Shown: positions 24,370-44,240 of the stretch, piece after piece
Position numbering within the stretch: position 1 is the stretch's first letter
Layout: each line of letters opens with the position of its first letter
Origin: Bacteroidota bacterium
GTDB lineage: Bacteria > Bacteroidota > Bacteroidia > Chitinophagales > Saprospiraceae
Length of the DNA stretch: 64,000 bases
Reading direction: 5' to 3'
Assembly: GCA_029567325.1 (NCBI GenBank)
Contig: JAKQLF010000155.1
Coordinates: 62,001 to 126,000 of the forward strand
Program-made: the position numbers and the translations under genes
Notes under the pieces: model-generated
The model's database searches: none
Told to the model about the DNA's origin: nothing
Seen by the model: only the letters and a program-made list of their open reading frames with translations

Positions 24370-24443
24370 GGCGTGGTAGCTCAGCCGGTTAGAGCGTGCG
24401 ATTCATAATCGCAAGGTCGGGAGTTCAAGCCTCCCCCACGCTA
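24370..24443 (+). tRNA. tRNA with anticodon CAT (elongator Met, or Ile after lysidine modification)
   Basis: Cloverleaf read by eye: acceptor 24370-24376 pairs with the seven bases before the discriminator A (G1-U72 wobble). The D stem is GCTC/GAGC, the anticodon stem TGCGA/TCGCA with loop TTCATAA (anticodon 24404-24406), and the T arm GGGAG-TTCAAGC-CTCCC. The anticodon stem lacks the three G-C pairs of initiator tRNA, so it is not fMet. CAT could also be tRNA-Ile2; methionine is the more likely reading. The CCA end is not encoded. Confidence 0.93.
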
Positions 24444-41497: not shown

Positions 41498-42250
41498 TTA
41501 ATCCAATAATCCTCCGCATACGCTCAAAGTTTGTCCAGTTATGTAAGTTGACATATCTGAACCAAGGAAAACACAGGCATTAGCCACGTCAACTCCTTCA
41601 CCCAATCGCTTGAGAGGAATATTCTCTTCATAGGTTTTACGCTGCTCTTCTGTCAAGGCATGAGTCATGTCAGTAGCTATAAAACCTGGAGCAATGACAT
41701 TCGATCGAATTCCTCGAGAACCTACTTCTTTTGCAATTGATTTTGAAAATCCAATAATACCTGCTTTGGAAGCCGCATAATTGGCTTGCCCGGCATTACC
41801 AAATACCCCAACAACACTGCTCATATGGATGATTGATCCTGCTCTTTGCTTGAGCATGGGTTTTAAAATATGTTTAGTCAGATTAAATACAGATTTGAGA
41901 TTGACCTTGATGACATCATCCCATTGGTCTTCACTCATTCTGAGCATCAAAGTATCCTTGGTGATGCCAGCATTATTGATCAAAATATCAATTCTTCCAA
42001 AATCTGCTATGACACTTTCTATCAAAATAGCTGCTTGACCGAAATCAGATGCATCGGATTGATAAGATTTTATTTTTGCGCCATTATTGCTTAAATCTTC
42101 AACGATAGTTTGTGATTTGGCAGCTGAATTTTCACTCACATATGTGAAGGCAACAGATGCTCCCTCTTTCACATAAGCGTTCACTATTGCTTCACCAATT
42201 CCTCTTGATCCTCCTGTTATCAAGGCAACCTTACCATCTAATAGACCCAT
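41498..42250 (-). CDS. fabG: 3-oxoacyl-ACP reductase FabG
   Basis: 250 residues, classical short-chain dehydrogenase. The cofactor site ALITGGSRGIGEAIVNAYVK is at the start, followed by LINNAGITKDTLMLRMSEDQ, the catalytic Ser in IIHMSSVVGVFGNAGQANY and the Y-x3-K pair in NYAASKAGIIG. The end ITGQTLSVCGGL is typical of FabG in fatty acid synthesis. No other fab genes adjoin it. Its upstream region is the 1.1-kb hairpin-repeat region. Confidence 0.93.
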   Translation of the reverse strand: MGLLDGKVALITGGSRGIGEAIVNAYVKEGASVAFTYVSENSAAKSQTIVEDLSNNGAKIKSYQSDASDFGQAAILIESVIADFGRIDILINNAGITKDTLMLRMSEDQWDDVIKVNLKSVFNLTKHILKPMLKQRAGSIIHMSSVVGVFGNAGQANYAASKAGIIGFSKSIAKEVGSRGIRSNVIAPGFIATDMTHALTEEQRKTYEENIPLKRLGEGVDVANACVFLGSDMSTYITGQTLSVCGGLLD

Positions 42251-42390: not shown

Positions 42391-42443
42391 GGTATCGAAA
42401 TTTTGACACTTCGACACCTATATACTAACCCCAAAACCAATTT
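42391..42443. repeat. hairpin repeat unit 1
   Basis: The stem pairs 42391-42399 (GGTATCGAA) with 42410-42418 (TTCGACACC), nine pairs with one mismatch. The tail (42425-42443) reads CTAACCCCAAAACCAATTT. This is the most divergent copy. On the minus strand the stem is followed by ATTTTTATTT. Confidence 0.8.
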
Positions 42444-42474
42444 CTAAATTTATTTGGAAGAATAGTTAAAAAAA

Positions 42475-42530
42475 GGTATCGAAATGCTGTCACTTCGATA
42501 CCCATATAATTAACCCCAAAAAACCAATTT
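42475..42530. repeat. hairpin repeat unit 2
   Basis: A perfect nine-pair stem joins 42475-42483 (GGTATCGAA) and 42494-42502 (TTCGATACC). The conserved tail ATTAACCCCAAAAAACCAAT follows. On the minus strand seven T come directly after the stem. Confidence 0.85.
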
Positions 42531-42557
42531 AACCAATATCAATTGAAAGAGAGGAAG

Positions 42558-42630
42558 AAAAAGGTGCCGCTATGCAAAGCATTTCGGCACCCAATAATTA
42601 ACCCCAAAAAACCAATTGAAAATATATTTT
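42558..42630. repeat. hairpin repeat unit 3 (73 bp identical to unit 4)
   Basis: Stem 42563-42569 (GGTGCCG) with 42585-42591 (CGGCACC), plus an inner stem ATGC/GCAT (42572-42575 with 42579-42582) and loop AAA. The tail carries ATTAACCCCAAAAAACCAAT. All 73 bases recur at 42675-42747. On the minus strand five T follow the stem. Confidence 0.9.
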
Positions 42631-42674
42631 TGCCGTACTCACTATATTTAAACAACCAAGTTGTAAAAGAGTTT

Positions 42675-42747
42675 AAAAAGGTGCCGCTATGCAAAGCATT
42701 TCGGCACCCAATAATTAACCCCAAAAAACCAATTGAAAATATATTTT
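42675..42747. repeat. hairpin repeat unit 4 (73 bp identical to unit 3)
   Basis: Exact copy of 42558-42630, offset by 117 bases. Stem 42680-42686 with 42702-42708. The sequences on either side of the 73-bp block differ from those of unit 3, so the block is the unit of duplication. Confidence 0.9.
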
Positions 42748-42795
42748 ATACCCATCTATCACTGTCAAACAATACTTTCAGATTCCAAGGATTGG

Positions 42796-42859
42796 AAAAA
42801 AGGTGCCTCCATGTAAACATTTTGGCACCCAATAATTAACCCCAAAAAACCAATTGAAA
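42796..42859. repeat. hairpin repeat unit 5
   Basis: Stem 42802-42807 (GGTGCC) with 42824-42829 (GGCACC), inner stem ATGT/ACAT (compensated change from ATGC/GCAT), then the same tail ATTAACCCCAAAAAACCAAT. Six A precede it, giving six T after the stem on the minus strand. Confidence 0.85.
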
Positions 42860-43358
42860 GAATTTCTTATTTTCTTTATAAGCTCACTTTTGAACTTGTA
42901 TATCTTTATGACGATCAATAATATTTTACGTCACATTTATTTTTAAAAGTCAAACTGCTTTAAATCTATTTTAACATTTGTTTGATTTTTATGACTTTGC
43001 ATTTATTTACAACTTCTTTAAAGCGGGCACAAATGTATGCTAAAAATTAGCTAATATTCTATTCGAAAACCGTATTTAAGAATAATATATGATTTCAAGC
43101 AGAAAATTATGATTCATCAGAATTATATATGGTTTTATTAAAACAATTATTTATTAGATAAAATTCAGTTTTATGGATTTACGAGCCTTTTCTTTTAATG
43201 TAAATTTCATAATTCTGCAATTTTGTAAGATTTTGTACGACGAGGCTTTTTACCTTCAAAATTAAAAATTTAACTTTTGGTTAAATAAATTTTACTACTT
43301 TTTCGGCTAAAACAAAGCGTGCAACTAGGTTTATGTTCTAAAAAATTTCAAATGTTTT

Positions 43359-44240
43359 TTAAATGATGATGTCCTGATAAGGAAGGACTGTCTGATAACC
43401 TTTTTTGTTGAAATATTCTTTGGCTTCACCCAATCCACCCGGAGCTATGGCCAACATAAAGTCTCCGCCCCATGCTCCCAAAGATTTGAGTGCGTGTGGA
43501 TAATCAGAAAACAACTTTTCTTTCACGGGAGTAAAGCCAGTATGATGTTTTACAATCGATTCGTGTTCTACCATCAAATTGGAGAAAACATCCAAACTAG
43601 GTACATCAGCAACCTGCTCCGTAATCTCATCGATTTTTTTCACAAAATTTTTCTTGTCCTTGACGCTGCTCAAATATTTTTTGACCTCATCCTCGGACTT
43701 GGCTTTGGCATTGAGATGAACAAAGCACAATTTATCTTTATAAGCAGGCTTGAAATCTATAGGCGTATAGGAAATTTCATCCTCTGTGCACCAATAGATG
43801 ATTGGGCCTTTTGCACCAGCCGCTGCAACATCATATCCAGAACCATTCTCAACTTTAAAATACAATTCCAAAGGTTCGATTTCAGCCCATTGCGCTATGA
43901 GATTGATCAAAGTAGAACTACTACCCAATCCCCAATCCAATGGGAACTCAAGGTGTGTTTCTATTTTGAAGGCATTCCATTTATCCAAAAATTCACAATT
44001 GAGACGAACTGCTCCCTTCAAAATAGATTTTAACTTTTGACTGAGTGCCTCGTTTGTTGTCTCTGTTGCTGAAAAATCATAGAGTGAAATACTAGAAGAA
44101 AACCATTCATTACCATTATGGTCATAACTTTTCCATTCCAGATCAGTACTCCTAGTTGCCTTGATTGTCATACGCTGTCCCTGCTTGGTGGGTAATGCCA
44201 AACATCTTGATCCGTCAAGTACCGCGTACTCGCCTGTCAA
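43359..44240 (-). CDS. GYDIA-type GHMP kinase (isoprenoid pathway)
   Basis: 293 residues from the only nearby standard start, TTG at 44240. The frame continues upstream for about 19 codons to a TGA (44295-44297) and codes FYAHGKLLL joined to TGEYAVLDG, the conserved first strand of the family. The true N-terminus therefore seems to lie upstream of any ATG, GTG or TTG. Motif 2 is PLDWGLGSSSTLINLIAQW, NGSGYDVAAAGAKGPIIYW is the group's hallmark, and LGAWGGDFMLAIAP is motif 3. Bacteroidota mevalonate-pathway genomes carry such a kinase next to HMG-CoA reductase; here it is 19 kb away. Confidence 0.8.
   Translation of the reverse strand: MTGEYAVLDGSRCLALPTKQGQRMTIKATRSTDLEWKSYDHNGNEWFSSSISLYDFSATETTNEALSQKLKSILKGAVRLNCEFLDKWNAFKIETHLEFPLDWGLGSSSTLINLIAQWAEIEPLELYFKVENGSGYDVAAAGAKGPIIYWCTEDEISYTPIDFKPAYKDKLCFVHLNAKAKSEDEVKKYLSSVKDKKNFVKKIDEITEQVADVPSLDVFSNLMVEHESIVKHHTGFTPVKEKLFSDYPHALKSLGAWGGDFMLAIAPGGLGEAKEYFNKKGYQTVLPYQDIII

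Follow-up and report, generated by a model that had tools for sequence, protein, structure and literature searches.

The LhrC sRNAs of Listeria occur in several copies, partly in tandem, with terminators of their own and C-rich motifs, while sponge RNAs of the CsrB/RsmY type use a GGA-type motif. In Bacteroidota, few sRNA families have to our knowledge been characterised. By build, the system most like the one treated here is FopS of Bacteroides, for which the accounts drawn on here give a conserved single-stranded 5' stretch followed by a terminator, 14 copies and an occurrence in phage (PMC11697453). FopS is bound by the RRM protein RbpB, and the FopS and GibS RNAs bind SusC-type mRNAs in the start region and repress translation of susC (PMC11697453, PMC7366714).

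The DNA analysed here, called the window, is a stretch of 64,000 nt that carries five hairpin units in tandem. They lie where a sequence-only reading had placed them, at start-to-start spacings of 84, 88, 117 and 121 bases (the last is 121 or 122 according to the base counted). On the minus strand each unit has a conserved U/G-rich segment, (U)UUUCAAUUGGUUUUUUGGGGUUA, and then an intrinsic terminator. Along that strand, the features are as follows.

43359-44240, minus strand: GHMP-type kinase-like frame (by eye, no Pfam match), upstream neighbour of the array
42880-42897, minus strand: possible 5' hairpin of unit 5, AAGTTCAAAAGTGAGCTT (dG -4.8)
42837-42860, minus strand: conserved segment of unit 5, CTTTCAATTGGTTTTTTGGGGTTA (pattern search; G000:C330:104837-104860)
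42802-42829, minus strand: terminator hairpin of unit 5, which would be transcribed first; T-run 42801-42796
42716-42739, minus strand: conserved segment of unit 4, TTTTCAATTGGTTTTTTGGGGTTA (pattern search)
42680-42708, minus strand: terminator hairpin of unit 4; T-run 42679-42675
42599-42622, minus strand: conserved segment of unit 3, TTTTCAATTGGTTTTTTGGGGTTA (pattern search)
42563-42591, minus strand: terminator hairpin of unit 3; T-run 42562-42558
42511-42530, minus strand: conserved segment of unit 2, AAATTGGTTTTTTGGGGTTA (20-mer search)
42475-42502, minus strand: terminator hairpin of unit 2; T-run 42474-42468
42427-42442, minus strand: shortened, degenerate conserved segment of unit 1, AATTGGTTTTGGGGTT
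42391-42418, minus strand: terminator hairpin of unit 1, then ATTTTTATTT
41498-42250, minus strand: FabG-like short-chain dehydrogenase, downstream neighbour of the array

The stems differ by compensated changes, just as the sequence-only reading had described them: GGTATCGAA/TTCGATACC in unit 2, GGTGCCG/CGGCACC in units 3 and 4, and an inner ATGC/GCAT in units 3 and 4 against ATGT/ACAT in unit 5. Its account of the tails and of the minus-strand T-runs (5-7 T after the stems of units 2-5, ATTTTTATTT after that of unit 1) holds as well. Units 3 and 4 have 73 identical bases in common amid unrelated spacers, and unit 1 is a degenerate copy with T4 where the conserved segment normally has T6. The region had also been called gene-free, and the gap of about 1.1 kb between the flanking frames (42250 and 43359) indeed contains no convincing gene; an ORF of 98 aa at 42543-42839 was rejected, being the repeat read through. 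The array repeats beyond chance, because the 18-mer AACCCCAAAAAACCAATT has exactly five exact occurrences in the genome (5.8 Mb), and four of these fall in the array. A sixth copy in this genome, with an exact core, lies between FtsH-type and GyrB-type genes and has a different hairpin.

Across the family, the segment is widespread. With up to two mismatches allowed, a 24-base segment pattern was found in 90 of 120 sampled Saprospiraceae genomes (86 of 112 genera), at 0 to 5 copies per genome, and the reversed control pattern gave no match in the same 120 genomes; presence in 90 of 120 family genomes rules out a local duplication. BLAST matches to the array came from 13 of 40 genomes, the window's own included, and share about 23-30 bases, TTTTCAWTTGGTTTTTTGGGGTTA, after which the hairpins are of other sequence. 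A phylum-wide draw of 296 genomes, searched with a 20-mer at one mismatch, yielded six positives: five Saprospiraceae (own genome included) and one other. An exact scan of named genomes returned at least 118 stretches, and the titles among the matches listed were Saprospiraceae, Saprospirales, Lewinella, Neolewinella, Flavilitoribacter, Chitinophagales and looser Bacteroidota or bacterial MAGs. Plasmids searched with the array as query gave no match.

A covariance model, one of the checks proposed with the sequence-only reading, recovered further diverged copies in Saprospiraceae genomes lacking the pattern. It matched 13 of 31 genomes (30 pattern-negative Saprospiraceae genomes and G001), and in 12 of these the match is plausible by eye, with a T-run then GGGGT and, after these, a hairpin with its T tail; the match in G090 was dropped for a three-base insertion in the core and a missing T-run. 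A plausible diverged copy was found in G135 (L281), and second matches (L286, L288-L290) are partial or doubtful. Run on 148 phylum genomes with filters that lose weak matches, the model found three Saprospiraceae (own genome included) and one weak other. Outside the family, the matches in G272 (no terminator) and G268 (poor core) were put down to chance by eye. Four diverged copies occur in G041 (L047, L310), the L047 pair being altered inside the core, with ATTTTG for ATTTGG.

The set used for the counts below comprises 195 distinct copies (177 host and 18 viral), collected with a pattern of up to three substitutions in 23, mostly via exact-match scans, and excludes unit 1; hairpins, promoters and orientations were counted with our own scripts on mechanically called frames. 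The segment consensus is AGAUUGUUUUCAWUUGGUUUUUUGGGGUUA, most conserved in the U-run and the GGGGU that follows. Among the 195 copies the core TTGGTTTTTTGGGGTT hardly varies, in part because they were collected by a near-exact pattern; the 120-genome pattern search and the 31-genome covariance search are the fairer measures of conservation. The base at W is T in 115 and A in 62 of the host copies, and T in all 18 viral ones.

Straight after the segment, 188 of the 195 copies have a terminator hairpin with a T tail (dG -9 or below in 186), compared with 92 of 538 random windows (dG -9 or below in 19). As in trans-encoded intergenic sRNAs, an intrinsic terminator thus stands at the 3' end. Its sequence seems free to drift, with 185 distinct 40-nt hairpin regions among the 195 copies. 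The stems of relatives are nonetheless compensated, so that a lack of such compensation, which would have counted against the sequence-only reading, was not borne out. In 48 aligned copies, mostly picked for having a hairpin (45 drawn at random from 104 with a called hairpin, minus L129 and L180, plus five from the genus), 81.5% of stem cells pair and the covariation score is 0.398. Sliding the stem brings these values to 38.7-47.2% and 0.111-0.157, and shuffling gives a covariation score of 0.210. The number of double changes, taken by itself, does not set the stem apart: after sliding they still occur in 6-9 of 9 pairs, and one of the slides matches the stem's total of 40 such cells.

Upstream of the segment, a 5' hairpin of dG -4 or below precedes 83 of the 195 copies, compared with a rate of 7.3% in shuffles and of 16.4% for regions lying further upstream. 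In L073 and L074, from two genomes with three-copy arrays, the 5' hairpins differ in sequence yet stay paired. In the arrays of G005 and G004 the first unit has an altered, weaker one (dG -2.3 and +0.4), and units 2-4 of the window have none of note (dG -0.9 to -1.9). A promoter-like motif of the Bacteroidota type, TTG-N17-22-TAnnTTTG, precedes 16 of the 195 copies (1.15 in shuffles), and TAnnTTTG alone precedes 40 (13.6 in shuffles). No such box stands directly before the units of the window; within the stretch searched it occurs once, at 43037-43030. In the phage copies L204, L205 and L220, 15-24 nt separate the start of a TAnnTTTG box from the segment, so the smallest form of the RNA may comprise just the segment and its terminator. 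The predicted unpairedness of the segment averages 0.42, exceeds 0.7 over the core in 7 of 195 copies, and reveals no special openness when set against shuffled segments (0.46 versus 0.45, 98 copies).

The commonest locus, with 69 of 147, has a RadA-type frame upstream in divergent orientation (its representative has zinc-ribbon, AAA and Lon/ChlI-type domains). Otherwise the neighbours vary between genera, and include a frame without Pfam match (28 loci), DksA/TraR-type (27) and ScpB (18), each neighbour family being named from one representative. The array of G005 is flanked on both sides by frames that look similar by eye to those of the window, in the same order. In a deduplicated set of 146 loci (an earlier set of 158 copies held duplicates), the nearest frame runs antisense to the copy on the upstream side in 89 loci and on the downstream side in 84; with neighbouring frames so often antisense, the copies look like stand-alone genes. 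A tandem arrangement, with copies at distances of 68-372 bases, is seen in 13 loci including the window. One of the arrays, L191, has four copies at a spacing of 91-92 nt, and the T-runs of its internal hairpins are poor (TTTCATAAAA), so that one long RNA may be made there.

Copies are also found on phage contigs. The exact 23-mer is present in 21 viral stretches from 20 IMG/VR contigs, L206 and L209 being two ends of one contig; among the named phage records of INPHARED no match was convincing. PHROGs, consulted for ten neighbouring proteins encoded on nine contigs, placed a terminase large subunit near L207, L212, L217, L220 and L222, a portal near L208 and L217, a head protease near L205, an amidase near L209 and an HNH endonuclease near L216. 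How far these genes lie from the segment varies: the terminase frame ends 1.2 kb upstream in L217 and starts 1.0 kb downstream in L220. Most phage copies sit among same-strand frames, and they carry terminator sequences of their own. Four of them (L211, L214, L215 and L216) differ from nearly all other copies in keeping segment and hairpin with the T-run absent. In L212 and L215, the sequence preceding the copy resembles by eye the 3' end of a tRNA gene.

Hfq, which an Hfq-dependent sRNA needs in its genome, was over the cut-off in 0 of 120 Saprospiraceae genomes (G137 has a match below it, E 1.7e-4), in a search that was positive for 5 of 14 control genomes. RRM_1 proteins were present in 27 of 31 genomes. 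Because no Hfq was over the cut-off, a partner of the RRM type is proposed. A scan of 197 loci with a profile from five RRM proteins placed an RRM gene next to the RNA in one of them; in this sole case, L075 (G047), the RRM_1 frame starts about 730 nt upstream of the segment on the same strand.

Targets were sought by comparing duplex energies with those of shuffled or reversed segments and of gene interiors. For the 503 genes of a 780-kb stretch of G081, complementarity at start sites was not enriched (0.72 versus 0.90 in shuffles; 28 of 40 shuffles reached the observed ratio). A set of 631 start regions (named contigs and the window) yielded a slight excess confined to strong sites: 19 sites below -17 at starts and 11 inside genes, against 10 and 15 for the reversed segment and 4-6 and 5-24 for four shuffles. 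The best of these sites, however, belongs to the element, and the set contains the same genes many times over as orthologues. The reverse complement of the segment, AACCCCAAAAAACCAA-WTG-AAAACA, resembles a start site, but W varies and no such mRNA was found, so that the likeness is regarded as a coincidence that may still serve as a lead. Pairing with E. coli 16S, 23S and tRNA-Glu was at shuffle level, and an apparently low value for E. coli 5S (1 of 60 shuffles) was set aside, as the reversed segment scored nearly equal. RF00177 had no match in G000 or in the single-contig G081, where rRNA seems to have been withheld or to be missing.

Counting known copies, the antisense 13-mer AACCCCAAAAAAC has matches in 103 of 120 genomes, more than the reversed control. 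Among the matches listed outside known copies, 40 places (41 matches, 29 of them within an open frame of more than 100 codons on either strand) show no shared antisense site by eye. Six of the 41 matches are followed by a hairpin and T tail of dG -8 or below; two of these, both in G041, are diverged copies by eye, and L315, L323 and L302 may be.

From these sequence comparisons, the repeats very probably form an sRNA gene family. The array itself probably represents five tandem genes, with unit 1 decaying, of a trans-acting Saprospiraceae family in which the segment would be the working part. Tandem small RNAs, each with its own terminator, had been suggested from the array, and the suggestion gains from the family-wide conservation of the segment and the covarying terminator stems; it also fits the sixth copy, the locus shared by other genera and the promoter-like motifs before some copies. 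Each RNA would measure roughly 55-130 nt and consist of an optional, variable 5' hairpin, the near-invariant U/G-rich segment and the intrinsic terminator. Judged by this build, action in the manner of FopS/GibS appears most likely: the segment would pair with a target RNA, bind an RNA-binding protein, which may be an RRM protein, or do both. Whether the RNA acts by pairing with mRNA is, in our estimate, evenly balanced. Tandem and dispersed copies may provide higher dosage or different timing, and phages with the segment would supply an equal activity during infection.

The segment could instead be a protein-binding site, and the arrays CsrB-like multivalent sponges produced by read-through of weak internal terminators. 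One multi-site RNA would then titrate a host RNA-binding protein, and phages would carry the segment to disarm that protein. A segment that is nearly invariant while its flanks drift suits this idea, as do the lack of a complementary target, the regular spacing and poorly terminated internal hairpins of L191, and the four phage copies that keep segment and hairpin without a T-run. Most loci, however, are single-copy (13 tandem loci against 147 loci) and most copies have strong terminators, which leaves a sponge unlikely, if still worth considering. A wider proposal is similarly doubtful and is put forward as speculation: the segment of about 23-30 nt, near-identical in more than 80 genera, would be a hub for an Hfq-independent RNA regulator; phages would have captured it as a minimal gene of promoter, segment and terminator with which to control that regulator during infection, and hosts would multiply it in arrays that act as a multivalent sponge.

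A cis-acting leader, attenuator or specialised terminator of a neighbour (in the window, the FabG-like or the kinase-like gene) would agree with the similar same-strand genes around the window and G005 arrays and with the mostly same-strand surroundings of the phage copies, but it is very improbable given how often the next frame on either side is antisense and how neighbours differ from genus to genus. The sequence-only reading had offered a mobile REP-like repeat as an alternative, to which an insertion-derived repeat maintained by transposition may be added. Some genomes are indeed multicopy and phage contigs carry copies too, yet the idea found no support and we give it scarcely any credence: there are 0 to 5 copies per genome rather than the many dispersed related palindromes of REP/BIME elements, polarity with the T-run is fixed, one syntenic (RadA-type) position accounts for 69 of 147 loci, and conservation is confined to about 23-30 nt while hairpin sequences differ. 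The exact 23-mer common to phage contigs and hosts might, finally, be an attachment core or a DNA-binding site beside an incidental hairpin. Against this stand the terminator polarity in 188 of 195 copies, the phage copies' own terminator sequences, some with a promoter-like box, and the location of the tested phage copies near terminase, portal, protease, lysis or HNH genes, and its probability is close to nil.

Saprospiraceae are bacteria of activated sludge and marine habitats, and with a single pattern an sRNA candidate can now be recognised in 90 of the 120 genomes sampled and a covariance model obtained. Isolates carrying the segment (Neolewinella, Lewinella, Flavilitoribacter) make transcript, target and protein partner testable, and, since phage contigs carry copies, it can also be tested whether phages control RNA regulation in their hosts.

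Apparently, the RNA family has no earlier description. None of the 4227 Rfam models reached its gathering score in the array, and in E-value mode L002, L031, L034, L207 and L212 gave one weak match, below gathering. In the window as a whole, gathering score was reached solely by a tRNA at 24370-24443. Among the open papers listed for small or noncoding RNA of Saprospiraceae and Lewinella, or for the core letters, none was relevant. Compared with known systems, the array resembles LhrC in being made of tandem paralogous sRNAs, each with a terminator, but differs in sequence and phylum. It resembles CsrB/RsmY RNAs in repeating a short motif between hairpins, although the motif is not of the GGA type and most loci are a single terminated copy. 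Measured against the accounts of FopS and GibS drawn on here, it belongs to another bacterial family, forms tandem arrays and has yielded no start-site targets, and a variable 5' hairpin, of which the FopS consensus description makes no mention, often precedes the segment. The likeness to FopS and GibS, which for FopS (R1 seed included) is one of description rather than of letter-by-letter segment comparison, nevertheless extends to the build of short RNAs in which an intrinsic terminator follows a conserved 5' segment (here in 188 of 195 copies), to several paralogues per genome, to maintenance through one bacterial family, to an occurrence in phage and to a phylum in which RRM proteins act as RNA binders.
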